Below are positions 837 through 14,537 of a stretch of DNA of 14,900 bases, piece after piece. The notes below the pieces were generated by a model, which saw nothing but the letters and a program-made list of their open reading frames with translations, had not been told where the DNA came from and made no database searches. Each line of letters begins with the position of its first letter. The first letter of the stretch is position 1. This DNA comes from Tannerellaceae bacterium (GTDB lineage: Bacteria; Bacteroidota; Bacteroidia; Bacteroidales; Tannerellaceae). Made by a program: the position numbers and the translations under genes. The stretch spans positions 1 through 14,900 of the forward strand of contig JAITHO010000221.1 of assembly GCA_031279915.1 (NCBI GenBank), read 5' to 3'.

Positions 837-2360
837 ATGAAAATAACAGAGACGTTATACCACCAACAATTGGAAAAGATTTTACTGGAAGGTGAACAAA
901 TTGAACTTACCGCCGGCACTCGAACTCGGATAGCAGATTGTTACAATTTCCTCAAAGATTTCTCAGCAAACAAGGTCATTTATGGTATTAACACGGGCTT
1001 CGGGCCTATGGCACAGTACCGCGTAGACAATAATTCCTTAGAGGCCTTACAATATAATATCATCCGCAGTCATGCTACCGGAGCCGGCAAACCTCTGCCC
1101 GACCAGTACGTGAGAGCAGCCATGCTGGCCCGCTTGATGACCTTCGCGCAAGCCAAATCGGGAGTGCATCCCGAACTTACAGACCTACTTACGGAGATGA
1201 TAAACCGCGAGATATATCCGCTGGTTCCGGAGCATGGCGGCGTGGGCGCAAGCGGCGATCTGGTGCAGCTGGCTCACATCGCCCTGGCGCTGATTGGCGA
1301 AGGGCAGGTTAAATACAAAGATGAATGGAGGTCGACGGCCGATGTGATGGCCGAACATAAGCTCAAACCTTTACAGATCAGAATACGCGAAGGACTGGCT
1401 CTTGCCAACGGAACCTCAGTGATGGCCGGTATAGGCATGATCAATGCCCTTCATGCCGAACAATTGATGCGGCGATCTATACTTGCATCCGTTTGGATAA
1501 ACGAGATAAGCGGATCGTATGACGATGCCTTCTCGGATGTTCTGAACAACATGAAGCATCACAAAGGACAGCAGCTCATCGCCTCTTTGATGAGATCTGC
1601 AGGAGAGGATAGCTCCTGCCTCCAAAAGCGCGAGAACATGCTATACAACGGCGATAACAATGAAACGGTTTTTAGCCACAAGGTGCAGCCATACTACTCC
1701 CTTCGATGCGTGCCGCAGGTGCTGGGGCCCATCTGGGATGCTGTTGCTAACGCGCAGATGGTAACGCTCAACGAAATCAACTCCGCATGCGATAATCCGG
1801 TGATAGATCCGGATAGCCAAAATATATATCACGGAGGAAACTTCCACGGCGACTATATATCTTATGAGATGGACAAACTGAAGATTGCCATGACCAAGCT
1901 AACCATGCTCACCGAACGGCAGCTGAACTACCTCTGCCACGACCGCGTTAACGGTATCCTGCCGCCCTTCCTGAACATGGGCGTTCTGGGCCTCAACTAC
2001 GGATTGCAGGCTACACAGTTTACCGCAACCTCAACCACCGCCGAATGCCAAACCCTCTCGAACCCCATGTCGATACACAGCATCTCGTGCAACAACGATA
2101 ATCAGGACATAGTCAGCATGGGAACAAACTCGGCGATGATAACCGCCACCGTCATTAATAACGCCTGGGAAGTGATGGCCATACAGTACATTGCGCTTGC
2201 ACAAGCCGTCGACTGCCTCGGCATAGCCTCCAAGCTGGCATCCTCCACCCGACAGGCATACGAGCAAGTGCGGAAGCTAATCCCGACCATCGTTGAAGAT
2301 ACGCCCAAGTTTTGGGATATAGAGATCTTAAAACAGTTTATGATAGACTCAAAATTATAA
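837..2360 (+). CDS. Tyrosine/histidine ammonia-lyase family protein (likely tyrosine ammonia-lyase)
   Basis: This 507-residue protein belongs to the aromatic amino-acid lyase family, whose MIO cofactor forms from an internal Ala-Ser-Gly. That triad is at residues 138-140 in GGVGASGDLVQLAH. Other family residues are the catalytic Tyr49 in VIYGINTGFGPMAQ, Asn191 in the NGTSVM motif, and Tyr287/Arg290 in YYSLRCVPQ. From memory the sequence closely resembles the Flavobacterium johnsoniae tyrosine ammonia-lyase, including the RSH motif (77-79) and a similar length. Such enzymes deaminate tyrosine to 4-coumarate, the aryl starter of flexirubin-type pigments. As first gene of a polyketide-like operon it fits starter supply far better than histidine degradation, since no other hut gene is present. 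Histidine as substrate cannot be excluded from sequence alone. The reductase gene follows after 6 nt. Confidence 0.9.
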   Translation: MKITETLYHQQLEKILLEGEQIELTAGTRTRIADCYNFLKDFSANKVIYGINTGFGPMAQYRVDNNSLEALQYNIIRSHATGAGKPLPDQYVRAAMLARLMTFAQAKSGVHPELTDLLTEMINREIYPLVPEHGGVGASGDLVQLAHIALALIGEGQVKYKDEWRSTADVMAEHKLKPLQIRIREGLALANGTSVMAGIGMINALHAEQLMRRSILASVWINEISGSYDDAFSDVLNNMKHHKGQQLIASLMRSAGEDSSCLQKRENMLYNGDNNETVFSHKVQPYYSLRCVPQVLGPIWDAVANAQMVTLNEINSACDNPVIDPDSQNIYHGGNFHGDYISYEMDKLKIAMTKLTMLTERQLNYLCHDRVNGILPPFLNMGVLGLNYGLQATQFTATSTTAECQTLSNPMSIHSISCNNDNQDIVSMGTNSAMITATVINNAWEVMAIQYIALAQAVDCLGIASKLASSTRQAYEQVRKLIPTIVEDTPKFWDIEILKQFMIDSKL

Positions 2361-2366
2361 GGCGAT

Positions 2367-3095
2367 ATGAAATACGCATTAGTAACCGGAGGATCGCGAG
2401 GCATAGGACGGGCCATCTGCCTGCAGCTTGCCGCCATGCAGTATCCCATTCTGATAAATTACAGATCAAATCATGAGGCGGCTATTGATACTCGCCTCCA
2501 AATAGAATCGAAGGGAGGAAAAGCCGAGCTGCTCTCCTTTGACGCTGCCGACCCTCACTCGGCCGACGATGCCATCGGCCATTGGCAGGATACGCATGAA
2601 GGCGACTCGATTGCCATACTGGTTAACAATGCCGGGATTCGAATGGACAGCATGATGGTGTTCATGCAAAACGAACAATGGCATAAGGTGGTCGATACAA
2701 CATTGAATGGATTCTTCTACGTAACGCGTCGACTGCTGAAAGATATGCTCACCTCGCGCTGGGGACGGATAATAAACATCGCATCGCTCTCAGGACTGAA
2801 AGGACTTCCGGGGCAAACCAACTACTCGGCGGCCAAAGCAGCCCTGATAGGAGCCTCCAAAGCCTTAGCTCTGGAAGTAGCCGCGCGAAAAGTGACCGTC
2901 AACGTAATAGCTCCGGGCTTCATCGAAACAGATATGACCCGCGACCTCGACGAAAAGCAATTAAAACAAATGATTCCAGCCGGACGCTTCGGACAGCCCG
3001 AAGAAGTTGCAGCCCTGGCAGGCTTCCTCGCCTCTAACGAAGCCGCCTACATCACCGGCGAAGTAATCTCCGTGAACGGAGGACTATACACTTAA
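2367..3095 (+). CDS. fabG: 3-oxoacyl-ACP reductase (FabG/ApeQ-like SDR)
   Basis: A 242-residue classical short-chain dehydrogenase. The Rossmann nucleotide motif TGGSRGIG is at 7-14, NNAG at 87-90, and the active-site residues are Ser140, Tyr153 and Lys157 in the usual YxxxK arrangement with FabG spacing. The end, ITGEVISVNGGLYT, is typical of FabG. It would reduce the 3-oxoacyl-ACP made by the neighbouring ketosynthases to 3-hydroxyacyl-ACP with NADPH, giving the substrate for dehydration. It lies 6 nt after the ammonia-lyase and 15 nt before a ketosynthase, so it is probably the pathway-dedicated reductase and not the housekeeping FabG. The symbol denotes the family. Confidence 0.9.
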   Translation: MKYALVTGGSRGIGRAICLQLAAMQYPILINYRSNHEAAIDTRLQIESKGGKAELLSFDAADPHSADDAIGHWQDTHEGDSIAILVNNAGIRMDSMMVFMQNEQWHKVVDTTLNGFFYVTRRLLKDMLTSRWGRIINIASLSGLKGLPGQTNYSAAKAALIGASKALALEVAARKVTVNVIAPGFIETDMTRDLDEKQLKQMIPAGRFGQPEEVAALAGFLASNEAAYITGEVISVNGGLYT

Positions 3096-3110: not shown

Positions 3111-4337
3111 ATGAAACGAAGAGTAGTTGTAACCGGCATAGGTATATACTCCTGCATAGGGAAAGATCTTGCCGAAGTAACGCAGTCACTGTATGAAGGC
3201 CGATCGGGCATTGGAATCGAACCGCAACGTAAGTCCTACGGCTATCGCTCGCCTCTCACCGGCCTTATCGAACGTCCGTCGCTAAAAGGAATGCTCGACC
3301 GACGCCTCCGCATCTGCCTCGCCGAAGAGGGTGAATATGCCTACATGGCAACCTTAGAAGCAATGCTAACGGCAGGAATCGAACCCGAATTTCCGGACTA
3401 TAATGAGATGGGGATTTTCTATGGAAACGATTCGTCGGCTAAGGCAGTAATAGAAGCTCATAATACAATGGTATCGAAGAAAGACACCACGCTCCTGGGC
3501 TCGGGCGCAATATTCCAGTCGATGAACTCCACCGTAACGATGAACCTATCCACCATATTCCGTTTGCGAGGAGTGAACATGACCGTAAGCGCCGCCTGCG
3601 CCAGCGGATCGCATGCCATCGGACTTGGATACCTTTTCATCAAGCAAGGACTGCAAAACATTATTCTTTGCGGCGGAGCACAAGAAACCAACTACTACTC
3701 TATGGGCAGCTTCGATGCCTTAAGCGCATTTTCGACCCGCGTGGAGGATCCCGCCAAAGCCTCACGCCCCTTCGACATATCTCGCGACGGATTGATTCCA
3801 AGCGGAGGAGCAGCGAGCCTTATTCTCGAAGACTACGACCATGCCATGCGACGGGGAGCCACCATCTTTGCCGAAATAGCAGGCTACGGATTTTCGTCGA
3901 ACGGAAGGCATATCTCGCAGGCAAGCGATGAAGGTTCGCTAACAGCTATGATCCGAGCCTTAGACGATGCCAGAACCTCGCCGGCCGACATCGACTACGT
4001 GAATGCGCATGCTACATCTACTCCGCAGGGAGATGCCTTCGAAGCCATAGCATTGCACCGTCTGTTTGGACCAAATTGCCCCCCGATAAGCTCCACTAAG
4101 TCGATGACGGGACACGAGTGCTGGATGGCCGGAGCAAGCGAAATTGTTTACTCCATACTGATGATGCAACGCTCCTTCATCGCTCCCAATATCAACTTTG
4201 AGCAGCCCGACGAATACTCCGCAGAGCTGAACATTGCCACAAGTACAATAGAAACAGAACTGAATCTGATACTGTCGAACTCCTTTGGCTTCGGAGGAAC
4301 CAACAGCGCATTAGTGATAAAGAAATATCATTCGTAA
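3111..4337 (+). CDS. Beta-ketoacyl-ACP synthase (KAS I/II-like), catalytically complete
   Basis: A 408-residue thiolase-fold ketosynthase. The nucleophile Cys163 lies in SAACASGSHAIG, the first His is His300 in NAHATSTPQGD, Lys330 precedes TGH, and the second His is His335. The glycine-rich FGFGGTNSA is near the C-terminus. Cys163 has the same numbering as in E. coli FabB as I recall it, and the SACASG context is closer to FabB than to FabF. Two differences from the usual pattern are visible: NAHATSTP in place of HGTSTP, and TGHECWMAGASE in place of TGHxLGAAG. It would catalyse decarboxylative Claisen condensation with malonyl-ACP. It is followed after 15 nt by an ACP gene, a natural partner. 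Confidence 0.9.
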   Translation: MKRRVVVTGIGIYSCIGKDLAEVTQSLYEGRSGIGIEPQRKSYGYRSPLTGLIERPSLKGMLDRRLRICLAEEGEYAYMATLEAMLTAGIEPEFPDYNEMGIFYGNDSSAKAVIEAHNTMVSKKDTTLLGSGAIFQSMNSTVTMNLSTIFRLRGVNMTVSAACASGSHAIGLGYLFIKQGLQNIILCGGAQETNYYSMGSFDALSAFSTRVEDPAKASRPFDISRDGLIPSGGAASLILEDYDHAMRRGATIFAEIAGYGFSSNGRHISQASDEGSLTAMIRALDDARTSPADIDYVNAHATSTPQGDAFEAIALHRLFGPNCPPISSTKSMTGHECWMAGASEIVYSILMMQRSFIAPNINFEQPDEYSAELNIATSTIETELNLILSNSFGFGGTNSALVIKKYHS

Positions 4338-4352
4338 ACAATAATATATTCC

Positions 4353-4604
4353 ATGAATAGAGAGCATATAGAAGAAACGGTAAAACAATTTTTGATTGAA
4401 GAAATAGAAGTTGACGAAGCAGCAATCAAGCCGGAGGCTTTACTCAAGGATGATCTGGGAATAGATAGCCTCGACTTCGTCGACATAGTCGTAATCGTTG
4501 AACGCAACTTTGGATTCAAGATCAAGCCCGAGGAAATGGCCGAAGTGCATACCCTCTGTAACTTTTACGATTACATAGAATCCAGAACCGCCGCCAAAGA
4601 CTAA
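4353..4604 (+). CDS. Acyl carrier protein (first of two)
   Basis: An 83-residue acidic helical protein with the phosphopantetheine attachment motif GIDSL; the modified serine is Ser39. The length and the DSLDFVDIVV pattern of helix II are typical of a stand-alone ACP. It would carry the growing chain as a thioester between the ketosynthases, reductase and dehydratase of the operon. It sits between a ketosynthase and the methyltransferase. No phosphopantetheinyl transferase is in the window, so activation must rely on one encoded elsewhere. It differs clearly from the second ACP at 8369, so the two may serve different steps, such as starter loading and elongation; that division is inference. 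Confidence 0.93.
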   Translation: MNREHIEETVKQFLIEEIEVDEAAIKPEALLKDDLGIDSLDFVDIVVIVERNFGFKIKPEEMAEVHTLCNFYDYIESRTAAKD

Positions 4605-4614
4605 CTTACGCGCC

Positions 4615-5715
4615 ATGAAATTGTTCCCCGCATTAGAAAAGAAATACTCCGCAGAAAGCCGATCGGCCCTCGACGCTCTGCGAGCTGCCCACGAAATTGC
4701 CTTCGGCCCGATAGTATTCCAGGTATCGCGACTGATGGTTAAGTTCGGCATACTGCAAATGCTGCTCGATTCGGAAAAAGGGATGAGCCTTGCAGAAATA
4801 GCTGCAGAGGCCAAGCTCTCAGTTTATGCGGCTCAGGTGCTGCTCGAATCTGCGCTAACCACAGGCATAGTGTTGTGCAAGGAAGATAGGTTCGAGATCT
4901 CAAAAACGGGATGGTTTCTGCTTAACGATCCGCTGGTCAGGGTGAACATGGACTTCAATCACGACGTTAACTACCTGGGATGGTTCCGCCTCGAGGAAGC
5001 TTTGCGAAACGGAAAGCCCGAAGGCCTCAGAGTGTTCGGCTCCTGGAGCACCATTTACGAAGGCTTATCAAGCTTGCCGGAAAAGGTGCAGCAGAGTTGG
5101 TTCGCCTTCGATCATTACTATTCAGACAGCTCCTTTGCCGAAGCCCTCGAAATAGTATTCAGCAACAAACCGGAAAGCCTGCTCGACGTTGGAGGCAACA
5201 CCGGTCGCTGGGCGATGCAGTGCACGGCTCACGATCCCGACGTTAAAGTAACCGTCATGGATCTTCCTCAGCAATTGGAGCTCATGAAGCGGCAGATAGC
5301 CGGATCTGAAGGCGCATCGCGCATCTACGGCTATGCGGCAAACTTGCTCGACAATAGCGTGGCCTTTCCTTTGGGATATGATGCGATATGGATGAGCCAA
5401 TTCCTCGATTGTTTCTCGGAAGAGGAAGCAACAAGCATACTCACTCGCGCAGCGGCCTCCATGAGCGATCACAGTCTACTTTATATTATGGAAACCTGCT
5501 GGGACAGACAGAAGTTCGACGCCGCTGCATTTTGTCTCGCACAAATTAGCCTCTACTTCACCGCCATGGCCAATGGAAACAGCAAGATGTATCACTCCGA
5601 CGACCTCCTGCGATGCATAAAGGCAGCAGGATTGCAGCCAGAGCACATTCACGACGGCTTAGGGAAAGGGCATTCTCTCATCATTTGCAGAAAAACTTCG
5701 GATGCGGAGCGCTGA
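4615..5715 (+). CDS. SAM-dependent methyltransferase, OMT family 2-like
   Basis: 366 residues in a two-part architecture. The N-terminal helical/winged-helix dimerisation region (about 20-110) contains the GILQMLLDSEKGMSLAEIAA pattern typical of plant-like and CrtF-like O-methyltransferases. The Rossmann methyltransferase domain (about 185-366) has SAM motif I, LLDVGGNTG, at 189-197 and MDLP at 215-218. Where these enzymes usually have a catalytic His-Asp-Trp motif (LHDW), this protein reads SQFLDCF (261-267), so the classical base His is absent. Head groups of known aryl polyenes and flexirubins carry ring methyls, so C-methylation of the hydroxyphenyl head is a reasonable hypothesis. Direct evidence for O- versus C-methylation is lacking. 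Its last 14 nt overlap the next gene. Confidence 0.75.
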   Translation: MKLFPALEKKYSAESRSALDALRAAHEIAFGPIVFQVSRLMVKFGILQMLLDSEKGMSLAEIAAEAKLSVYAAQVLLESALTTGIVLCKEDRFEISKTGWFLLNDPLVRVNMDFNHDVNYLGWFRLEEALRNGKPEGLRVFGSWSTIYEGLSSLPEKVQQSWFAFDHYYSDSSFAEALEIVFSNKPESLLDVGGNTGRWAMQCTAHDPDVKVTVMDLPQQLELMKRQIAGSEGASRIYGYAANLLDNSVAFPLGYDAIWMSQFLDCFSEEEATSILTRAAASMSDHSLLYIMETCWDRQKFDAAAFCLAQISLYFTAMANGNSKMYHSDDLLRCIKAAGLQPEHIHDGLGKGHSLIICRKTSDAER

Positions 5716-6142
5716 CGACATCAATGTTCTTGATTTGCTCCCGCAGCAGCCGCCATTCGTTATGCTCGACCGGATGCATCGATCGGACAAAGTCGTCACG
5801 CTAACCTCGCTGCTGGTGCGTAGCGATAACTTCTTTCTCCAAGACGGTAAGCTGAGCGAAGCCGGACTGTTGGAGAACATGGCTCAAACATGCGCTGCAC
5901 GGATGGGATACATCAGCCTTGAGCTGGAAGGAGGATGCGTCAAACTTGGCTTCATTGGCTCTATGCGCAACATGAATATTCTGCGATTGCCGGAAGTGGG
6001 CGAAGAGATAATGACCGAAGCGACCGTTCTCGAAGAAGTTTTCCAAATGACACTCGTGAACATGAAAGTAAGTACCGCAACGGGAGAAATCATTGCCGAA
6101 GGCGAAATGAAAATATCTCTCACTGATATACCTGCAAGCTGA
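5702..6142 (+). CDS. Hotdog dehydratase-like protein (ApeP/FabZ-like) lacking the catalytic His
   Basis: 146 residues. The LLPQQPPFVMLDRM segment (12-25) matches the entry of FabZ-type hotdog proteins (LPHRYPFLLVDRV), and LLENMAQTCAA (56-66) matches the central helix bearing the catalytic acid; Glu58 aligns with the FabZ Glu. The FabZ catalytic His, in GHFPxxP fourteen residues before that Glu, is missing: the aligned stretch reads NFFLQDGKLSEAG with no His. This fits ApeP-like dehydratase partners of APE clusters. A second hotdog domain at 13395 has the His. The gene overlaps the end of the methyltransferase by 14 nt and its stop overlaps the next start (TGATG), implying translational coupling. 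Confidence 0.72.
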   Translation: MRSADDINVLDLLPQQPPFVMLDRMHRSDKVVTLTSLLVRSDNFFLQDGKLSEAGLLENMAQTCAARMGYISLELEGGCVKLGFIGSMRNMNILRLPEVGEEIMTEATVLEEVFQMTLVNMKVSTATGEIIAEGEMKISLTDIPAS

Positions 6143-6576
6143 TGAGCAATAAGGCGACCGTCCATCTTGCTGCCTCCAAAGAGATCTGTATACGATTCAG
6201 CGAAGTAGATTCGATGGGATTTGTGTGGCACGGTTCGTATGCTCTGTATTTTGAGGATGCCCGCGAAACCTTTGGGGCGATGTACGGCATATCTTATCTC
6301 GACATCTTCAATAATGGCTACTACGCTCCGCTTGTTGATCTCGCCTTTTCGTTTAAGCAACCTTTATCTTACGGCAAGAAGGCTATCGTTACTGCAAGCT
6401 TTCGCAACACTCCGGCGGCAAAAATCCTCTTCGATTACGAGATTAAGAAGGTTGACGACGGAACGCTTATCGCTACGGGATCGTCCGTTCAAGTATTTCT
6501 TGATCACGAATACCGTTTAGTATGGACTTTGCCTCCGTTCTTTGCAGAATGGAAACGGAAACACAATCTGCTATGA
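6142..6576 (+). CDS. Acyl-CoA/ACP thioesterase, 4-hydroxybenzoyl-CoA thioesterase (YbgC) family
   Basis: 144-residue single hotdog protein. The N-terminal motif IRFSEVDSMGFVWHGSYALYF has Asp23 and His30 at the seven-residue spacing of the YbgC catalytic Asp and His, followed by the conserved YFEDAR. The C-terminal half has the expected beta strands (FDYEIKK, GSSVQVFLD). The family hydrolyses acyl-CoA or acyl-ACP thioesters, so it may release the finished chain or edit stalled chains on ACP. The start ATG shares a base with the preceding stop and the stop TGA overlaps the next ATG at 6573. Homologues are usual in APE and flexirubin loci. Its precise substrate is unknown. Confidence 0.82.
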   Translation: MSNKATVHLAASKEICIRFSEVDSMGFVWHGSYALYFEDARETFGAMYGISYLDIFNNGYYAPLVDLAFSFKQPLSYGKKAIVTASFRNTPAAKILFDYEIKKVDDGTLIATGSSVQVFLDHEYRLVWTLPPFFAEWKRKHNLL

Positions 6577-7712
6577 TATCTTGGATGGGCGATAGCATTG
6601 TTTCTCCTTTAGGATTTACGTCGGAGGAAAATTATCAGGCGGCGAAGGGCCAGCGTTCGGCTGTTGCACTGCATTCGTGCGAAGGCCTTGCAGAGCCGTA
6701 TCATGCTGCTATCATTGACAAGGATGCTCTGGCAAGGGCTTTCGAAGGACGATGCGAATCTCCCAAAGGCCTCACTCCGCTTGAGCAGGCTGCCATACTG
6801 TCGATAAAGCTGGCGGCGGAAGGAAGCGGAATCTGCTTGGATTCTTCTAAGACGCTTTTCGTGTTCTCTTCAACAAAGGGGAACATTGAGCTGCTCGACG
6901 CTCCTGCCGGATCTTATGAGCGCGAAAAGCTTTACCTCTGGCATACGGCCGCTCTGATCGCGCGATGGTTTGGCAATCCTAACGAGCCGATCGTTGTATC
7001 GAATGCCTGCGTATCGGGAGCTTGCGCGCAGATCGTTGCCATGAGAATGATTGAGGCAGGAAGATATGAGACGGCCGTTGTGACCGGAGCTGATATGGCT
7101 TCACGCTTTGTCGTATCCGGATTCCAATCGCTTAAGGCTCTCGCTGCGGGACAGTGCCGTCCGTTCGATGTAAATAGATCGGGACTGAATTTGGGCGAGG
7201 CAGCGGCTACCATAATATATAGGAAACATAATGGAAGTACCGAATCTTCTTCCCAAATAAGCCTCCTTGCGGGAAGTATTCGCAACGACGCTAACCATAT
7301 ATCAGGACCGTCGCGCACTGCCGAGGGCGCTTTTCTGGCTTTGAATGATATACTGGTGCATGCCGCGAAGGAAGACATCGCTTTTGTGTGCGCTCACGGG
7401 ACGGCTACTCCATACAACGATAGAATGGAAACCATCGCTCTCAGACGAGCCGGACTTGACGGAATACCAACCAACAGTCTCAAGGGCTGCTTTGGACATA
7501 CGCTTGGGGCGGCAGGAACGTTGGAGAGCATTATCTCCGTATGGGCTTTGCGGGAAGGGATTGCGCTAGGTACTTGCGGCTTTGAGGTGGAGGATCCTGA
7601 TTGCGCCCTGCCTGTTTCGGCGAATAATATTGCCGCCAACGGATCGTACTTCCTCAAGATGCTTTCGGGATTCGGAGGAAGCAATGCGGCCTTGTTGTTT
7701 TCTAAACCATAA
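6573..7712 (+). CDS. Beta-ketoacyl synthase, compact, catalytically complete
   Basis: With the ATG at 6573, which overlaps the preceding stop as ATGA, the protein has 379 residues and begins directly at the first strand (MISWMGDSIVSPLG). An upstream in-frame ATG at 6522 would add 17 residues inside the previous gene and looks less likely. Cys146 in SNACVSGAC, His275 in CAHGTATPYND, Lys304 and His309 in CFGHTLGAAG form a full triad, and SGFGGSNAAL is near the C-terminus. It is shorter than the other two complete ketosynthases. It is probably an elongating or starter-condensing enzyme of the pathway; which step cannot be told from sequence. It is followed after 10 nt by the half-length ketosynthase-like gene. 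Confidence 0.87.
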   Translation: MISWMGDSIVSPLGFTSEENYQAAKGQRSAVALHSCEGLAEPYHAAIIDKDALARAFEGRCESPKGLTPLEQAAILSIKLAAEGSGICLDSSKTLFVFSSTKGNIELLDAPAGSYEREKLYLWHTAALIARWFGNPNEPIVVSNACVSGACAQIVAMRMIEAGRYETAVVTGADMASRFVVSGFQSLKALAAGQCRPFDVNRSGLNLGEAAATIIYRKHNGSTESSSQISLLAGSIRNDANHISGPSRTAEGAFLALNDILVHAAKEDIAFVCAHGTATPYNDRMETIALRRAGLDGIPTNSLKGCFGHTLGAAGTLESIISVWALREGIALGTCGFEVEDPDCALPVSANNIAANGSYFLKMLSGFGGSNAALLFSKP

Positions 7713-7722
7713 AGCTATTGCA

Positions 7723-8340
7723 ATGCTGAGCATCAAACAATACAGTTACATCTCCCCGAAGCATGCTTGTTCGCTGCCTCCTAAGGCGAAGATTGCATGC
7801 GCGGAGGGAGTTGATTTGCTAAATCTTTATCGAAGTCTCGGGCTTGATTATCCGAAGTTCTTCAAGATGGACGTTCTGTCGAAACTTGGAATTCTTGCCG
7901 CTGAACTGCTTTTGGCTGGAGAGGAAAGAGGGGAGGCCGAGGCTATGGAAGATCGATCGATTGCCTGCTTCAATCGAAGCGCATCGCTTGATGCTGATAT
8001 TGCCTACGCGAAGACTATACAGCCGCAGGATTTCTACCCAAGCCCATCCCTCTTTGTTTACACTTTGCCGAGCATTGTTACTGGCGAAATTGCCATTCGG
8101 CACAGGTTAAGGGGGGAGACTTCGTTTTACGTTACGCGCGAATGGGATGCGGAATTTGTTGTTGAGACGGTTCGGCAGATATTTGCCGTTGGCGCGTCGC
8201 GGTCGGTTGTCGCAGCATGGCTCGAATGTGAGGAGGATAGGTTTGAGGCGTTCATGATGCTCGTTGGCGATGATGGCGACGGGCTTAAATTCTCAACCGA
8301 TATTGCCAACTCTTTAATAACCGATTTACGCTTGCACTGA
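7723..8340 (+). CDS. Half-length ketosynthase-like protein (N-terminal thiolase domain; chain-length-factor type)
   Basis: 205 residues from the ATG at 7723, the first start after the preceding stop. An in-frame ATG at 7582 would lie deep in the upstream gene and is rejected. The segment SPSLFVYTLPSIVTGEIAIRHRLRGETSFYV (about 108-138) resembles the middle of the N-terminal ketosynthase-like family (ketoacyl-synt_2 type), followed by DAEFVVETVRQIFAVG and the AAWLE strand. No SAC nucleophile motif, no HGT motif and no second thiolase repeat are present, so it cannot be an active synthase alone. Similar half-KS proteins occur in aryl polyene loci and may act as chain-length partners of a full ketosynthase. 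The coding strand here is more T- and G-rich than in later genes. Confidence 0.62.
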   Translation: MLSIKQYSYISPKHACSLPPKAKIACAEGVDLLNLYRSLGLDYPKFFKMDVLSKLGILAAELLLAGEERGEAEAMEDRSIACFNRSASLDADIAYAKTIQPQDFYPSPSLFVYTLPSIVTGEIAIRHRLRGETSFYVTREWDAEFVVETVRQIFAVGASRSVVAAWLECEEDRFEAFMMLVGDDGDGLKFSTDIANSLITDLRLH

Positions 8341-8368
8341 TTTTTTTTAATAACCCTATAATACGATA

Positions 8369-8626
8369 ATGGAAGATTTGATTTTAGAACTAAAGAGCGA
8401 GATTATTAAGGCACTGAACCTTGAAGAAATAAGTCCGAATGATATTGGCGACGACGACCCTCTGTTTGGCGACGGCCTCGGACTTGACTCTATTGATGCC
8501 CTGGAGCTCATCGTTTTGATGGAAAAAAATTACGGCATTAAGCTGACCGATCCTTCTCAGGGACGCGATATTTTTCGCTCGGTACGCATTATGGCCGAAT
8601 ACATTCAGGCTAATCGAACGAAGTAA
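8369..8626 (+). CDS. Acyl carrier protein (second of two)
   Basis: 85 residues with the attachment motif GLDSIDALELIVLME; the phosphopantetheine serine is Ser41. The insertion DDDPLFGDGLGLDSID before it is characteristic of ACPs of APE and flexirubin loci, where PLFG..LGLDSID is common as I recall. It is clearly different from the ACP at 4353. It lies 28 nt after the half-ketosynthase and 66 nt before a complete ketosynthase. The T-rich run TTTTTTTT just upstream (8341-8348) is an ordinary spacer, and I see no -7 promoter box there. Two ACPs in one locus is the usual APE arrangement. Confidence 0.93.
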   Translation: MEDLILELKSEIIKALNLEEISPNDIGDDDPLFGDGLGLDSIDALELIVLMEKNYGIKLTDPSQGRDIFRSVRIMAEYIQANRTK

Positions 8627-8692
8627 GGATGATGCTACCAACATCGCCTGAGGTTTATCCCTCCAAAATCTCCGCCTAACAATTTCAAAACG

Positions 8693-9895
8693 ATGAGAAA
8701 CATATATGTAACGGGGATGGGAATAATATCCGCGCTGGGTACCGGTTACACACGTTCGCTGGATGCGCTGAGGAAACGGAAGTCGGGAATAGCGAGGATT
8801 AAGAAGCTCGAGACTTTGCACAGGGACTTTCCCGTTGGGGAAGTCGGCCCCTCCGACCAGGATATGATGTTCAAGCTGGGATTGCGCAAGTCTAGCGTTA
8901 CGACCCGATCGGCGCTCATGGCCAGCATTGCCGTGCAAGAAGCTTTGAGGATGGCCGAAATAAGCGACGAATACGATTCCGACAGAAGGCTCGCACTGAT
9001 TTCCGGAACCACCGTTGGAGGAATGGACATGAGCGAACGATATTACCGCAACTTTCTCGACGGCCCGGAGCACAGCGCTTACATTTCGACGCACGACTGC
9101 GGATCTTGTACCGAACTCACGGCTGACTACTTCGGGATTTTCTCCTTCGTACAAACCATATCCACAGCCTGCTCCTCAGCGGCCAACGCTATCCTGTCAG
9201 GCGCCGAACTGATTCTCGACGACCGAGCTGACTACGTTGTGGCAGGTGGAAGCGAATGTCTGACAAAATTTCACCTGAACGGATTTGCCAGCCTCATGAT
9301 TCTCGACCGAGAGCCCTGCAAACCCTTCGACGCAGCTCGCGGAGGACTCAATCTGGGCGAAGGCGCGGCATACATCGTTCTGGAGGCCGAGGATACGATC
9401 AAACGACGAAACGCACAGCCTATATGCCGCCTCAGCGGATGGGCAAATACCTGCGACGCTTATCACCAAACGGCCTCGTCTCCACTTGGCGACGGCGCGC
9501 GGATGTCGATGGAAAAAGCTCTCAGCAAGGCCGGTTTATCGCCTGCCGACATAGGATACATCAACGCGCACGGCACCGGCACGGCAAACAACGACCTGAG
9601 CGAAGGCCTCGCCATTGAAGCAGTTTTCGGCCAAAATATTCCAGCCGTATCCTCCACAAAAGCCTTCACCGGACACGCCACCAGCGCGGCAGGAAGCATT
9701 GAAGCCATCATCTCGATAATGGCCTTACAGCACAGATTCATTCCCGCCAACCTCAATTTCAAAAATCAGATGCCGGAGCTGAGCTTCCAACCTTCGCAAG
9801 GCGCTGAAGGCGTCGAACTACGGCATGTGCTCACAAATTCCTTTGGCTTCGGAGGTAATGATACAACCCTCATCTTCTCGAAAAATTCCTTATGA
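8693..9895 (+). CDS. Beta-ketoacyl-ACP synthase (FabF-like), catalytically complete
   Basis: 400 residues with Cys160 in STACSSAANAI, His293 in NAHGTGTANND, Lys323 and His328 in TGHATSAAG, and NSFGFGGNDTTL near the end. These are the classical KAS II features. It starts cleanly with MRNIYVTGMGIISALG. Together with the adjacent ACP it would extend the polyene chain. The two triad-less KS-like proteins of the locus (7723 and 10652) are candidate heterodimer partners for this or the other complete enzymes. After its stop comes the only long gap inside the operon. Confidence 0.9.
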   Translation: MRNIYVTGMGIISALGTGYTRSLDALRKRKSGIARIKKLETLHRDFPVGEVGPSDQDMMFKLGLRKSSVTTRSALMASIAVQEALRMAEISDEYDSDRRLALISGTTVGGMDMSERYYRNFLDGPEHSAYISTHDCGSCTELTADYFGIFSFVQTISTACSSAANAILSGAELILDDRADYVVAGGSECLTKFHLNGFASLMILDREPCKPFDAARGGLNLGEGAAYIVLEAEDTIKRRNAQPICRLSGWANTCDAYHQTASSPLGDGARMSMEKALSKAGLSPADIGYINAHGTGTANNDLSEGLAIEAVFGQNIPAVSSTKAFTGHATSAAGSIEAIISIMALQHRFIPANLNFKNQMPELSFQPSQGAEGVELRHVLTNSFGFGGNDTTLIFSKNSL

Positions 9896-10246
9896 TGACT
9901 TTTATCTCCTCCAAAACAAAAAGCCTTTTGGGGCAAAAAAAAATATGTGGCCGGCATTTTTTTCCCAGAGAAGCCAAACACACGTGTGGCTGGGCCCAGG
10001 ACAATTTCCTGGAGCAAAACCGACGTTTGGCTGGGCTGTGGGAAAATTTTTGGAGAGAAAAACATGGCTCATCGGTATCCCAAAAGCTTTTGCGGCATGA
10101 GGCAAGATGCGGGGTAGGGCAAACGCATTTAAACTTCATAGCCTATATCCGTAATGAATCTATGCTCCGCTTTTTTTGCAAGGCTATGCAAGATTGCAAA
10201 TCCGCATTTTTCCCAGCTGAAGCCTTTCTAAAGTTCAGTTATGTCA
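9896..10246. other. Gap inside the operon, first part: diverged 41-bp repeats and small palindromes
   Basis: No credible gene. A diverged repeat of about 41 bp is visible: GTGTGGCTGGGC at 9984-9995 recurs as GTTTGGCTGGGC at 10025-10036, exactly 41 bp later, and the following AATTT..TGGAG segments are about 42 bp apart (10003 and 10045). A third, weaker unit precedes them from about 9953. Palindromes include CACACGTGTG (9979-9988) and CCAGGA/TCCTGG (9996-10012). CCAAAA/TTTTGG (9911-9931) makes a weak stem followed by A residues, so it is not a rho-independent terminator on the + strand. From about 10080 to 10246 nothing specific is seen. Confidence 0.6.
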
Positions 10247-10479
10247 AATCTGATTTTCGCAAGCAAAATAAACCTTCAGTTTTGCCGAATCTGATTTTCG
10301 CAAGCAAAACGAACCTTCAGTTTTGCCGAATCTGTTTTTCGCAAGCAAAACGAACTTTCAGTTTTGCCGAATCCGATTTTCGCAAGCCAATGTAATCTTA
10401 CATTTTGCCGAATCCGATTTTCGCAAGCAAAATGAACCTTCAGTTTTGCCGAATCTGATTTTCGCAAGCCAATGTTATT
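10247..10479. repeat. 41-bp tandem repeat array with conserved internal hairpin
   Basis: Five complete 41-bp units start at 10247, 10288, 10329, 10370 and 10411, with a partial sixth from 10452 to about 10479. The unit begins AATCTGATTTTCGCAAGC and ends TTTTGCCG. Inside each, GCAAAA(C/T) and GTTTTGC are inverted repeats of 6-7 bp with a loop of 9 nt. Unit 4 replaces both arms by a different complementary pair, AATGTAA and TTACATT with a 2-nt loop, keeping the ability to pair. There are no unique spacers, so it is not CRISPR. Function unknown. Confidence 0.92.
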
Positions 10480-10651
10480 TTGAGAGACTTCCATGGCTAC
10501 GGATTTTTATCAATCGCAGCTTTGAACGATAAAAAAATTGGCGGCACAGAAAATATCTTCTTATCATTGAGCTCAAATTTAAATGCGCTTGCCCTTAGAT
10601 GCGGGGCGATGAAAAACAATCAGAAGTGATGAAACAAATTCTTTAGAAGCT
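10480..10651. other. Spacer before the triad-less ketosynthase gene
   Basis: A 172-bp stretch with no gene. I do not see a good TAnnTTTG box; CAGCTTTG at 10517-10524 is a one-base mismatch with no clear -33 element. The bases immediately upstream of the ATG at 10652 are A-rich (GAAACAAATTC), like other leaders here. An internal promoter is possible but unsupported. Confidence 0.4.
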
Positions 10652-11713
10652 ATGAACAAAGTATATCTGCTCGACGCAAAGCATATCTCGGCCCAAAAAC
10701 CGCTGAGCGAGGAATGGACAGATGCGCCCATCTATCCCTCCGGATCATTATCCTCATTCACGCCCTCCATCGACCCCGACTACGCTCAATGCTTCGCTCC
10801 CAATGTGAGGCGGCGGCTCGGCAAACTTCTCAAACGGGCTCTACTCGCCTCGCGAACAGTAATGGAATCAAGCGGAATAGCATGCCCCGATGCGATACTC
10901 ACAGGCACCGGATTTGGATGCGTTGAAAACACAGAAGTCTTTCTGGAAGCAATGACCTTTGAGGGCGAAGACTGCCTGAAGCCAACCAACTTTATGCAAT
11001 CAACGCACAACACTATCGGCTCCCTCATCGCCATCGAAACAGGCTGCCATGGATACAACACCACCTACACGCACAAAGGCGTGTCGTTCGAATCAGCGCT
11101 GCTCGACGCATTTATCCGCATAGCTAACGGACACATCCGCAACGCCCTCGTCGGATCCTACGATGAGATGACCCCGCACTACCGCATCCTCCTGAATCGC
11201 ACCGATTACCCAGGCAATGCCTACTTCGGCAGCGAAACCGCCCTTAGCGCCATCCTCGCCGATGAACCCTCTGAGGGCAGCAAAGCTTTATGCCGCATCG
11301 AAGCCATAGAGATGATCTACGGAAAATCTCCCCAATGCATCGCCACCGCCCTCCAACGGATTCTCTGTCGCGCCGGCCGTAGCTTCTCAGACCTCGACGC
11401 CATAATGACCGGCCTGAACGCCGACAAAGCCAACGATGCAGTATATCGCAGAGCCGAAGCAGAGCTCTTTTCAGGCAAACCTCTTTTGCAATACAAACAT
11501 CTGTTTGGCGAATCGCATGCAGTGTCAGGGCTCGGAGTTTATGCAACAGCCGTTTGCCTTCAGCGCGGCAGCGTTCCGGGCTTCATGCTCGTTAGCGATA
11601 AAAAGTTTAGGGTGGATAAGCTTCGCGATGATTTGCCGGCAAAAACCATACTCTTTTACAATCACTGCGGAGGCAAGAACCACGCCCTCATACTCATGAG
11701 CTCATGCGAATAA
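10652..11713 (+). CDS. Ketosynthase-like protein without catalytic triad (chain-length-factor-like)
   Basis: 353 residues with the thiolase-type layout but degenerate active sites. The nucleophile-elbow region reads NTTYTHKGVSFESALLD (about 136-152): the position expected for Cys is occupied by Gly143 or a neighbour, and no SAC motif exists. The HGT motif is replaced by GLNADKAND, and the last motif reads KHLFGESHAVSGLG in place of TGHxLGAAG, with NHCGGKNHAL where FGGxNxxL is usual. A ketosynthase family member with these losses is expected to act as a structural partner, like chain-length factors, and not as a synthase. It follows the 756-bp gap, and its end overlaps the next gene by 10 nt. 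N-terminal residues 1-40 do not align well with ordinary ketosynthases. Confidence 0.78.
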   Translation: MNKVYLLDAKHISAQKPLSEEWTDAPIYPSGSLSSFTPSIDPDYAQCFAPNVRRRLGKLLKRALLASRTVMESSGIACPDAILTGTGFGCVENTEVFLEAMTFEGEDCLKPTNFMQSTHNTIGSLIAIETGCHGYNTTYTHKGVSFESALLDAFIRIANGHIRNALVGSYDEMTPHYRILLNRTDYPGNAYFGSETALSAILADEPSEGSKALCRIEAIEMIYGKSPQCIATALQRILCRAGRSFSDLDAIMTGLNADKANDAVYRRAEAELFSGKPLLQYKHLFGESHAVSGLGVYATAVCLQRGSVPGFMLVSDKKFRVDKLRDDLPAKTILFYNHCGGKNHALILMSSCE

Positions 11714-12057
11714 TACTAGCCTTCGCCGTCCTTCAAAGCATGCTGCTCGCAGCCGGGCAAGTCTTCCTGAAGATAGGTTTGGGGCGGATAAACGGCGTAT
11801 CCCTGTCATGGAAGTTCATTGCCTCCCAGATAGTCAATTGGCCCCTTGCCGCCGCCGGAGGATGCCTAACCGCAGCCACCTTGCTGTGGATCTACATGCT
11901 GCGGCGCTTCGAATTTGGCGTAGTATATCCAATGACCAGCCTTGGATACCTATTCGGAATGATAGCGGCAGCAACCATCTTCCAGGAGCATATCCCGCCA
12001 ACAAGATGGCTCGGCCTGGCGCTCGTAATCGCCGGCATAATATTAATCGCTAAGTAA
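11704..12057 (+). CDS. Small four-helix membrane protein, SMR/EamA (EmrE/ArnE-like)
   Basis: 117 residues with four hydrophobic segments (about 3-22, 34-53, 56-74 and 80-116). Motifs typical of small EamA/SMR proteins are visible: GQVFLKIGL in helix 1 and FGVVYPMTSLGYLFGMIAA in helix 3, followed by FQEHIPPTRWLGLALVIAGIILIA, as in the ArnE/ArnF subunits that flip undecaprenyl-linked sugars. The helix 1 acidic residue required in drug-exporting EmrE is not apparent (AAGQVFLK). In this locus it may help move a lipid-linked or glycosylated product across the inner membrane, perhaps in partnership with the downstream glycosyltransferase. It overlaps the previous gene by 10 nt. Confidence 0.75.
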   Translation: MRIILAFAVLQSMLLAAGQVFLKIGLGRINGVSLSWKFIASQIVNWPLAAAGGCLTAATLLWIYMLRRFEFGVVYPMTSLGYLFGMIAAATIFQEHIPPTRWLGLALVIAGIILIAK

Positions 12058-12113
12058 AATAATCAGTCAAACGATTAGCGGAGTATTTCGCAACTAATAA
12101 AAGATAACAGAAG

Positions 12114-12296
12114 ATGTACAGGCAATTATTCAATCCAAGGGAGAACGGTCAAACGATCCCCGCCGGTATTCCGTCCAAATGGAACGGGCTGACGGTAGAA
12201 GTCATTGCGTTTCCAATACAAGAACGGAGGATAAGGCGCGACGATATAGCTTTAGCCTCCCTCGCAAGCCCTGAAGGTTCAAACATTAGAAGTTAA
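12114..12296 (+). CDS. Small hypothetical protein (60 aa)
   Basis: Sixty residues beginning MYRQLFNPRENG, with the core IPSKWNGLTVEVIAFPIQE. Small proteins with an IPxEWxGxxVEVIxFP pattern are familiar to me from Bacteroidales genomes, where they sometimes sit next to toxin-like genes; the pattern recalls AbrB-type antitoxin folds, but I cannot confirm the family. No toxin partner is seen here. It lies 56 nt after the membrane protein and 28 nt before the LolA-like gene, interrupting an otherwise functional series. An A-rich stretch precedes the ATG. It may be an insertion or remnant unrelated to the pathway. Confidence 0.5.
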   Translation: MYRQLFNPRENGQTIPAGIPSKWNGLTVEVIAFPIQERRIRRDDIALASLASPEGSNIRS

Positions 12297-12324
12297 CTCA
12301 ACAACATAATAAAGAAGACGAACA

Positions 12325-12969
12325 ATGAAGACAGTTGTTATATCAATCATTATTGCTTGGACAAGCATTGCTTATGCAATCGCCCAAGACTACCGCGAGG
12401 CATCCCCACAGCAGCAGAAGCAAATGCTGCAGAAAATCACCGAGGCATCATCGCGGATGAAGTCGCTCGCCTGCGACTTTGAGCAAACTAAAGAGCTCTC
12501 GATTCTCAACGAAAAAATGAGCTCGAAGGGACGCATGTTCTATCGAAACGACCAATGCGTGCGCTGGGAATACTCCACGCCTTATGCCTACACATTCGTT
12601 TTCAACAACAACCGCATCCTCATGACACAGGCCGACGGAAAACAAAGCGTTACCGACGTTAAGTCGAATAACCTATTCCAGGAAATCGTGAAGATCATGA
12701 TCAGCAGCATCGACGGCAGCGGACTAACCGACTCGAAGAGCTTCACATCTAAATTCTTCATCGCCGGCGATGATCCAATGGTAACGCTCACTCCGGTAAG
12801 GAAAGACGTCCGACGAATGTTCGCAACCATAAAGCTTTTCTTCACCGCAAAGGATTATTCTGTCGACTCCGTCGTCATGGAGGAAAGCAACGGAGATAAT
12901 ACAACAATCAAACTCACTAATAAACGCTACAATGAAACGATCAATCCAAGTCTGTTCGCTATTAATTAG
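12325..12969 (+). CDS. LolA-like periplasmic outer-membrane lipoprotein carrier
   Basis: 214 residues. An N-terminal signal peptide (residues 1-20, hydrophobic VVISIIIAWTSIAYA) has a likely cleavage after Ala20 (AIA-QD). Mature-domain hallmarks are DFEQTKELSI (51-60), SKGRMFYRND and VRWEYSTPYAYTF (79-91), matching the LolA core FEQ...G.l.f.rP..fRW.Y. LolA binds lipoprotein acyl chains in the periplasm. A dedicated paralogue in APE-type loci probably ferries the lipid-like product or a lipoprotein to the outer membrane. The 3' end overlaps the next gene by 38 nt. Confidence 0.83.
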   Translation: MKTVVISIIIAWTSIAYAIAQDYREASPQQQKQMLQKITEASSRMKSLACDFEQTKELSILNEKMSSKGRMFYRNDQCVRWEYSTPYAYTFVFNNNRILMTQADGKQSVTDVKSNNLFQEIVKIMISSIDGSGLTDSKSFTSKFFIAGDDPMVTLTPVRKDVRRMFATIKLFFTAKDYSVDSVVMEESNGDNTTIKLTNKRYNETINPSLFAIN

Positions 12970-13408
12970 CATCCTGATCCTGGCCGGTTGCGGATCGCAT
13001 ACAATGATGGGCCCGCGAACCTATCCGCATCTGGATCGCACACCACGCTATCGCATAGAAATAAATTCTGAGAAAGGCGGCTTCTCCGGAGCTCTCATCA
13101 TAAGAAAAGAAGCACGATCCGGATGGAGAGGCAGTCTCGTAAACGAATTTGGAGTCAAAGCCTTCGACATAATTTCGCCCGACCGATACACATGCAAGCT
13201 CCAGAACGTAATGCCCTTCATAAGCAAATGGTACATACGGTCAACCATAACCGACGACTTTCGATACCTACTCTGGGATGGCAACGAAGGTGTCAGACGG
13301 TCAGGCAAACAGATCGACAAACTCCCTAACGGAACCATTGTTTTGACAAACACACGGAGGCATATCGAATACATACTCCATCCGCTACCAAACCATGACC
13401 GTCGCTAG
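12932..13408 (+). CDS. Small lipoprotein of unknown function
   Basis: 158 residues with a type II signal peptide: MKRSIQVCSLLISILILAGC, a lipobox LAGC with Cys20 as the lipidated residue. The mature part is beta-rich (RYRIEINSEKGGFSGALIIRK, RGSLVNEFGVKAFDI), a layout reminiscent of LolB or the DUF3261-type lipoproteins found near LolA-like proteins in APE loci. I cannot assign a family with certainty. It overlaps the LolA-like gene by 38 nt and the next gene by 14 nt. The companion relationship suggests it accepts cargo from the LolA-like carrier at the outer membrane, but this is inference. Confidence 0.8.
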   Translation: MKRSIQVCSLLISILILAGCGSHTMMGPRTYPHLDRTPRYRIEINSEKGGFSGALIIRKEARSGWRGSLVNEFGVKAFDIISPDRYTCKLQNVMPFISKWYIRSTITDDFRYLLWDGNEGVRRSGKQIDKLPNGTIVLTNTRRHIEYILHPLPNHDRR

Positions 13409-14537
13409 GATATTCCATCTACGACAAACCACAACCGAGGCCGACGGCTTCTGCTGCACGCTGGGAATCGACCACAACAATCCAATCTACAGGATGCACT
13501 TCCCAGGAAACCCTGTAACGCCCGGAGTTTGCATAATTCAGGCATGCAAAGAACTATTCGAAATACAGCTCGGACAACAACTCCGGCTGCAGAGGATCGA
13601 CAATGTCAAGTTCCTCGCAGTCATCAGCCCAAAAGAGCACAACTCCATACGGCTAACTTTCTCCAAGATTACAAGCAATGCCAACCGACTATACTCCTGC
13701 AACGCAATATGCACTGCCGATAACGGAGCAAACAGCATAACCTTCGCCAAGCTCAAACTAACATTCGCCCAAACCGCCGCAGCGCTCGAACAACGAATGA
13801 AACGCAGCGGAACATGCCTCCTCATTCCAACCTACAATCACGGCACATACCTCCGACAAGTCCTCAACGAAGCCCTGCGGCAATCTTCCGACATCATACT
13901 CGTCGACGACGGATCAACCGACAGCGCCAAAACCATCCTCGCCGACTTCGCCCATCGAATCAACATCATCACCCTCCCAACAAACCGCGGAAAAGGATAC
14001 GCACTCGCACAAGGCATGAAACAAGCCATCGCACAAGGATTCCGAAACGTCGTCACCATGGACTCCGACGGACAGCACTCGCCCAACGATCTACGGGCAT
14101 TCCTACAAGCCGCCGAAGACAATCCCGGAGCATTGATCACCGGCGCACGAACCTTCCGAGAAAAACACATGCCCGCAGGAAACCGATTCGCCAACAGATT
14201 CTCGAACTTCTGGTTCACACTACAAACCGGCCGACGGCTCCCAGACACCCAATGCGGATACCGCCTTTATCCATTAAAACATATACAACACATGCGAGCC
14301 ATAGGCGCCCGATACGAAACCGAGCTCGCATGGCTGCTCCAATTCGCATGGAAAAACATCCAAATCATCGCCATACCCATACAGGCCGATTATCGCCCCA
14401 CCGGCGAGCGACCATCACACTACCGACGTAGCATCGACTTCATGCGCATCAGCCTGCTCAACGCCCTGATGTGCTTCGCCGCCATTTTCTACGGATACCC
14501 CAGCCTGCTATACCGCAAGCTCAAACCTCGCCGCTAA
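13395..14537 (+). CDS. Fusion of hotdog dehydratase-like domain (ApeI-like) and family-2 glycosyltransferase
   Basis: 380 residues with two domains in one frame. Domain 1 (about 1-130) is a FabZ/ApeI-like hotdog with MHFPGNPVTPGVCIIQA: His35 matches the FabZ catalytic His, and the residue 14 positions later, where FabZ has the catalytic Glu, is Gln49. Domain 2 (about 138-380) is a GT2 glycosyltransferase: CLLIPTYNHG start, DDGSTD at 171-176, the metal-binding DSDGQH at 223-228 and ARYETELAWL near 305-314. The C-terminus has a hydrophobic stretch (SLLNALMCFAAIFYGYPSLLY), perhaps membrane-associated. In APE clusters these activities are usually neighbouring separate genes (ApeI, ApeJ). An ATG at residue 135 could give a free glycosyltransferase. 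It overlaps the lipoprotein gene by 14 nt. Confidence 0.78.
   Translation: MTVARIFHLRQTTTEADGFCCTLGIDHNNPIYRMHFPGNPVTPGVCIIQACKELFEIQLGQQLRLQRIDNVKFLAVISPKEHNSIRLTFSKITSNANRLYSCNAICTADNGANSITFAKLKLTFAQTAAALEQRMKRSGTCLLIPTYNHGTYLRQVLNEALRQSSDIILVDDGSTDSAKTILADFAHRINIITLPTNRGKGYALAQGMKQAIAQGFRNVVTMDSDGQHSPNDLRAFLQAAEDNPGALITGARTFREKHMPAGNRFANRFSNFWFTLQTGRRLPDTQCGYRLYPLKHIQHMRAIGARYETELAWLLQFAWKNIQIIAIPIQADYRPTGERPSHYRRSIDFMRISLLNALMCFAAIFYGYPSLLYRKLKPRR

Follow-up and report, generated by a model that had tools for sequence, protein, structure and literature searches.

The window analysed here, meaning the whole stretch of 14,900 bases, is a complete contig (JAITHO010000221.1) of the Tannerellaceae bacterium assembly GCA_031279915.1, which is 60.75% complete and comprises 2.09 Mb in 229 contigs. 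Based on Pfam and NCBIfam scans, both run on one set of ten window proteins, the window is firmly assigned to flexirubin biosynthesis by NCBIfam, with FlxA, FlxJ and LolA2 matching over their curated cut-offs (Table 1). Flexirubins are presented as a chemotaxonomic mark of Bacteroidetes in the available part of the Chitinophaga pinensis account (PMC3992019). Two open reading frames (ORFs) of this cluster concern us here: the one at 5702 encodes a FlxF-type hotdog protein, and the one at 13395 a FlxS-type hotdog domain fused to a family 2 glycosyltransferase (GT2). These labels were assigned by family and position, not by alignment with the C. pinensis proteins. The initial annotation had read the two as dehydratase-type proteins with complementary half active sites, and the sequence comparisons below support that pairing.

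Table 1. Features of the window, with the dehydratase genes and their codons listed first.
Feature	Position	Strand	Basis or remark
FlxF/ApeP-type hotdog protein, 146 aa, predicted glutamate half of dehydratase	5702..6142	+	intact ORF
Glu58 codon, FabZ-type catalytic acid	5873..5875	+	133/133 rows; aligned to FabZ Glu
Gln62 codon, Q of E-x3-Q	5885..5887	+	E-x3-Q in 133/133 and 32/32 rows, overlapping sets
Fusion protein, 380 aa: FlxS/ApeI-type hotdog and family 2 glycosyltransferase	13395..14537	+	intact ORF, Pfam
Hotdog domain, residues 1-130, predicted histidine half of dehydratase	13395..13784	+	
His35 codon, FabZ-type catalytic histidine	13497..13499	+	His in 57/57 rows
Gln49 codon, place of FabZ Glu / FabA Asp	13539..13541	+	acid in 0/57 rows
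Glu53 codon, conserved acid one helical turn past Gln49	13551..13553	+	E in 55/57 rows; invariant in A3
Glycosyltransferase family 2 domain, residues 141-337	13815..14405	+	Pfam/NCBIfam; separate adjoining gene in most relatives
FlxA tyrosine ammonia-lyase	837..2360	+	NF053541, 819.5 bits, cut-off 700
Short-chain dehydrogenase/reductase-type ketoreductase, FlxB position	2367..3095	+	ORF position and sequence
Ketosynthase with Cys motif	3111..4337	+	read from sequence
Acyl carrier protein (GIDSLD)	4353..4604	+	read from sequence
FlxJ family methyltransferase	4615..5715	+	NF053543, 599.7 bits, cut-off 560
Hotdog thioesterase	6142..6576	+	Pfam 4HBT_2
Acyl carrier protein (GLDSID)	8369..8626	+	read from sequence
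Flexirubin LolA2	12325..12969	+	NF053544, 194.1 bits, cut-off 125
LolB2-like gene	12932-13408		precedes the 13395 ORF; 34.9 bits, below the 60-bit NCBIfam LolB2 cut-off

In the 5702 protein, Glu58 lies within LLENMAQ as annotated, in an intact frame. The reported absence of a histidine at the place of the FabZ GHFP motif also held, as the sole histidine of the protein is His26, which is missing in the 90%-identical homologue P0001. Across an alignment of 33 rows (A1; the window protein and 32 of 120 listed homologues), E58, A61 and Q62 were invariant. Profile searches then covered the frames of the 80 best of 556 loci, together with those of the first 30 loci from a phylum genome sample. Rows removed before counting were the window copies L001 and L083, the LpxC-FabZ protein of the same genome (L002), a match whose frame was wrong for the FabZ alignment (L134), the FabZ-like rows L187-L189 and a chance GT2 match in L164. 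Also removed was a FabZ-like protein that carries the His as well as E-x3-Q and is encoded, as a gene of its own, near a flexirubin-type cluster (L145, 4961-5443). Glu58 was kept in all 133 remaining FlxF-type domain rows, and at residues 40-57 histidine never occurred in more than 14 of the 133 rows per column (maximum at column 50); in columns 48 and 49, the FabZ His place by motif and by hhalign, it occurred in 3 rows each. Another histidine of this family as a replacement for the lost one was therefore rejected.

When a FlxF-type alignment of greater diversity (A5) was compared by hhalign with ten aligned LpxC-FabZ proteins (A4, the FabZ alignment), the probability was 98.1, with Glu58 falling on the FabZ Glu, Gly49 opposite the FabZ His, and five gap columns between the His and Glu places. 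A thioesterase function for the 5702 protein was considered and rejected, as thioesterases appeared far down the fold rankings (rank 48 in one, from rank 34 in the second); the E-x3-Q motif together with the FabZ profile match favours a dehydratase. PF22817.2 had no match in the 5702 protein, in five FlxF-type relatives, in six genomes or in 14 control genomes, which makes this model uninformative here. At two Bacteroidales loci, a second, divergent FlxF-type domain was located kilobases past the first (L074, 15592-16047; L077, 4920-5489).

For the 13395 protein, Pfam identified a FabA-like domain at residues 22-102 and Glycos_transf_2 at 142-267. His35 within HFPGNPVTPG and Gln49, 14 residues further on at the FabZ Glu place, were both numbered correctly in the initial annotation, and the frame is intact. 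FlxS-type counts were made on 57 rows (the window and 56 loci); alignment A3 comprises 30 rows. His35 was kept in all 57, and the residue at His+14 was Q in 43 rows, K in 9, R in 3, and G and L in one each. The corresponding motif was Q-x3-E in 41 of the 57 rows, K-x3-E in 9, R-x3-E in 3 and others in 4, so that acid and amide of E-x3-Q appear, in effect, exchanged by one helical turn. A second set of 20 stretches (19 of 20 kb, one of 3.4 kb) contributed 17 additional FlxS-type rows, all with Q at +14, and 12 additional FlxS-type genes carried Q-x3-E (11) or Q-x3-D (1). The hhalign probability of A3 against the FabZ alignment was 87.9. The precomputed ApeI family label PF22818.3 was present on the 13395 protein and its three listed relatives; PF22818.2 scored 16.4 bits on the protein, below its 28.5-bit cut-off. 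No direct profile match was obtained between the FlxF-type and FlxS-type families.

The LpxC-FabZ protein of the same genome served as a built-in control, as His and Glu were both present in the same alignment; it was the sole row with E at +14 in the initial profile search. Given that Glu58 and His35 are kept across all counted rows, the split is characteristic of the family and no lesion confined to this genome. A FlxF-type gene was present in 81 loci, and in 57 of them the fetched DNA also held a FlxS-type gene. Of the other 24, 12 had less than 7.5 kb downstream and 12 had more; in whole-genome searches of the latter, 11 proved to carry a clear FlxS-type gene, and in G431 a search for this type yielded a FabZ-like match only. 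A FlxS-type gene was likewise present in each of six further genomes that carry a FlxF-type gene. In these 17 whole-genome FlxS-type genes, the +14 and +18 residues were Q and E in 14, Q and Q in one (G118), and Glu at both positions in two (G347 and G351, corresponding to the compact loci L185 and L186). The FlxF- and FlxS-type genes of G347 adjoin, 15 nt apart, and those of G351 overlap by their listed starts (8179-8607 and 8595-8975; the second start is uncertain), an arrangement consistent with joint function. The ORFs scanned in the G351 cluster included a ketosynthase, a FlxB-type reductase, a thioesterase and a CrtD-like oxidoreductase; an ammonia-lyase was not found among them.

A different ratio of the two gene types was observed elsewhere in the phylum sample. 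At E 0.001 the FlxF profile matched 247 of 395 genomes, but most of these matches were weak and fell largely in frames as long as those of LpxC-FabZ. Strong matches (E below 1e-20) were found in 36 of the 395, and 24 of these 36 had two. All 12 fetched surroundings of those 24 showed tandem FlxF-type pairs, both members with the Glu and without a conserved His; loci L146, L148, L149, L151 and L153-L160 combine such a pair with one FlxS-type gene. Each of the 24 genomes had one strong FlxS-type match in a whole-genome search (E at most 3.2e-28), the other matches being weak (E 3.7e-6 or worse). Judging from kinship tags and cluster form, these genomes are presumably flavobacterial.

In FabZ, the His and the Glu meet across the dimer interface. 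Single-chain predicted models of the 5702 and 13395 hotdogs each matched their counterpart among the two different chains of the ApeI:ApeP heterocomplex (PDB 6qsr), and because this heterocomplex has been solved, we infer a heterodimer for the window proteins. We consider it likely that the 5702 protein pairs with the N-terminal hotdog of the 13395 protein in an obligate heterodimeric 3-hydroxyacyl-acyl carrier protein (ACP) dehydratase with one complete site. This enzyme would introduce the double bonds into an aryl polyene (APE) of the flexirubin type. In this 1:1 complex, the 5702 protein would supply the FabZ-type Glu without a His and the 13395 domain the His without that Glu, and His35 and Glu58 would meet across the interface. 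The mirror site, with no His from 5702 and with Gln49/Glu53 from 13395, would be dead, and a homodimer of the His half, having lost the Asp of ApeI, would have no FabA/FabZ-type site. This suggests that two dehydratases are needed in flexirubin clusters since each holds half an active site.

Several observations qualify this proposal. FabZ chains scored about as well as the 6qsr chains against the window models. The acid loss is not universal among relatives, as the His halves of G347 and G351 keep Glu at +14. The initial annotation put Gln49 where FabZ has Glu, a place without an acid in all 57 rows, but it overlooked Glu53 at His+18, a candidate acid. This position holds E in 55 of the 57 rows (A and M in one each), in 17 of 17 rows of the second set and in 11 of the 12 additional genes, and is invariant in A3; the Asp of the twelfth gene makes an acid role there slightly likelier. 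Mainly because of Glu53, the His half alone is at most predicted to be inactive. It is nevertheless unlikely, in our estimate, that a homodimer of the 13395 hotdog is the dehydratase via the Glu53 of its Q-x3-E, with the 5702 protein as an accessory or chain-length subunit. FabZ keeps E-x3-Q, and in ApeI the acid sits at +14 while +18 carries none; neither relative thus uses +18 as its acid place. Moreover, E-x3-Q occurs in every 5702-family row counted, and an accessory subunit would not need it.

Less probable still is that one or both hotdogs are not dehydratases here, LpxC-FabZ carrying out the dehydration while the hotdogs bind or protect the polyene chain. The LpxC-FabZ of this genome does carry both catalytic residues, and hotdog function can shift, as in AmcE of cispentacin synthesis, given as a decarboxylase in the available part of its account (PMC10698177). 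Nevertheless, the catalytic residues of the window families are conserved in all counted rows, with no drift, and the homologous ApeI:ApeP is treated as the aryl polyene dehydratase, ApeH/ApeP having been assayed in vitro according to the portion of the source at hand (PMC8041823). That the halves pair with other partners, for example the tandem Glu halves with each other in Flavobacteria-like genomes while the His half serves another step, would fit the single strong His-half gene in every one of the 24 genomes that carry two Glu halves but seems very improbable, as a Glu-Glu dimer without a conserved His gives no FabZ-type site and the window has one of each half, with no second copy in its own genome (assembly 60.75% complete).

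A less likely extension of the His35/Glu58 heterodimer is a strictly complementary flexirubin dehydratase whose His subunit, having exchanged E-x3-Q for Q-x3-E, would be inactive alone. One His subunit of Flavobacteria-like genomes would then be common to two tandem Glu subunits, so that two alternative dehydratases would share out the early and the late double bonds of a single pigment. As Glu halves outnumber His halves 2:1 in such genomes, they would allow a test of whether subunit exchange sets dehydratase specificity.

The GT2 fusion of the 13395 protein is shared by relatives P0122-P0124 and was counted in 7 of the 57 FlxS-type rows (the window, L003, L004, L010, L035, L055 and L068). 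GT2 was the adjoining downstream frame in 46 rows, and in the remaining 4 it lay farther away, showed a larger overlap or the locus ended. Among the 17 second-set rows, it was located about 0.5 kb downstream in 12, adjoined in 2 and was not found in 3. In the genus of the window, 9 of 18 genomes had the protein, as one frame in 6 and as separate hotdog and GT2 frames in 3; this count overlaps with that of the 57 rows, some genomes being common to both (L003, L004 and L068). The fusion thus looks like a recent join of adjoining genes, and in this lineage it would tie the dehydratase to the glycosyltransferase.

Among the named loci, the nearest is L003, from a Tannerellaceae metagenome-assembled genome, with 90% identity to the 5702 protein. 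The initial annotation had placed the two hotdog genes at opposite ends of one operon, a description that we do not retain: the 5702 gene stands sixth in the cluster, not at its end, and a 756-nt repeat-bearing stretch separates it from 13395, so a single operon is not established. This stretch (9896-10651), between the 8693 and 10652 genes, contains a 41-bp tandem repeat of 5.8 copies (10234-10469) and short ORFs. Further tandem repeats occur at the contig ends (1-245, 398-514 and 14757-14808, with units of 42/84 bp, 19-41 bp and 22 bp). The Ketoacyl-synt_2 protein at 10652-11713 has STHNTIG, without Cys, where the other window ketosynthases have ACASG, ACVSG and ACSSA, and looks like a chain-length-factor type subunit. 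Between this gene and the LolA gene, 11704-12057 encodes a small membrane protein resembling EmrE/SMR (small multidrug resistance) proteins by sequence, and the open frame at 7582-8340, between ketosynthase and ACP genes, matched nothing in Pfam (E 0.1) or in NCBIfam (E 0.01).

Among known systems, FabZ and FabA homodimers have the hotdog fold in common with the window proteins, with a GHFP-type His motif like that of one and E-x3-Q like that of the other. In FabZ a single chain carries both residues (L002; A4, where E and Q are invariant), whereas each window protein has just one of them at the FabZ places. The mycobacterial HadAB and HadBC dehydratases are hotdog heterodimers with the catalytic residues in one subunit, unlike the window pair. 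In the C. pinensis flexirubin cluster, which also has a tyrosine ammonia-lyase, LolA and a glycosyltransferase, FlxF and FlxS are predicted dehydratases that jointly account for the dehydratase step, and the available part of that account does not mention complementary half sites (PMC3992019). A description of the flexirubin pair as a heterodimer was not found in the literature searched, which lay outside subscription journals.

The closest comparison is with aryl polyene clusters, for which a paired dehydratase is already known; the new element here would be a His half that also lacks the acid kept by ApeI. The Xenorhabdus doucetiae ApeI:ApeP heterocomplex (6qsr), the source of which we take to be Grammbitter 2019 (JACS), likewise joins two FabA/FabZ-type hotdogs of one pigment cluster. 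The corresponding Acinetobacter baumannii system is ApeH-ApeI/ApeP (PMC8041823). Our APE sample of eight plasmid loci, of 26 records found, gave eight ApeI and seven ApeP proteins; the Enterobacter asburiae locus had no ApeP match in the fetched stretch, and an IS26 transposase is annotated there beyond lolA. ApeP resembles the 5702 protein in having E-x3-Q (7/7) and no conserved His before the Glu, a His lying 9 or 10 residues upstream in 2 of 7 and none within 20 in the others. ApeI keeps the His, like the 13395 domain with its HFP motif, but has Asp at His+14 in 8 of 8, as well as in 6qsr_A and 3esi_A, where the window half has Gln49; at His+18 it has no acid (H 2, A 2, K 2, T 1, R 1), where the window half has Glu53. 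On account of Gln49, we file the 13395 His half as a sister family and not as ApeI. The gene context is partly similar: for five of the APE loci gene tables were available, and in all five a GT2 gene comes immediately after that of ApeI. ApeI, however, adjoins the acyl-AMP ligase ApeH or forms a fusion with it, whereas the window domain is fused to GT2, and the Pfam scan of ten window ORFs revealed no adenylating enzyme. As ApeI keeps a FabA-like His and Asp and the flexirubin His half lost its acid, the flexirubin pair would represent the stricter split. FabZ as a homodimer, ApeI with the acid kept and FlxS with the acid lost may therefore be regarded as a series, and as a natural system in which to test obligate active-site sharing.

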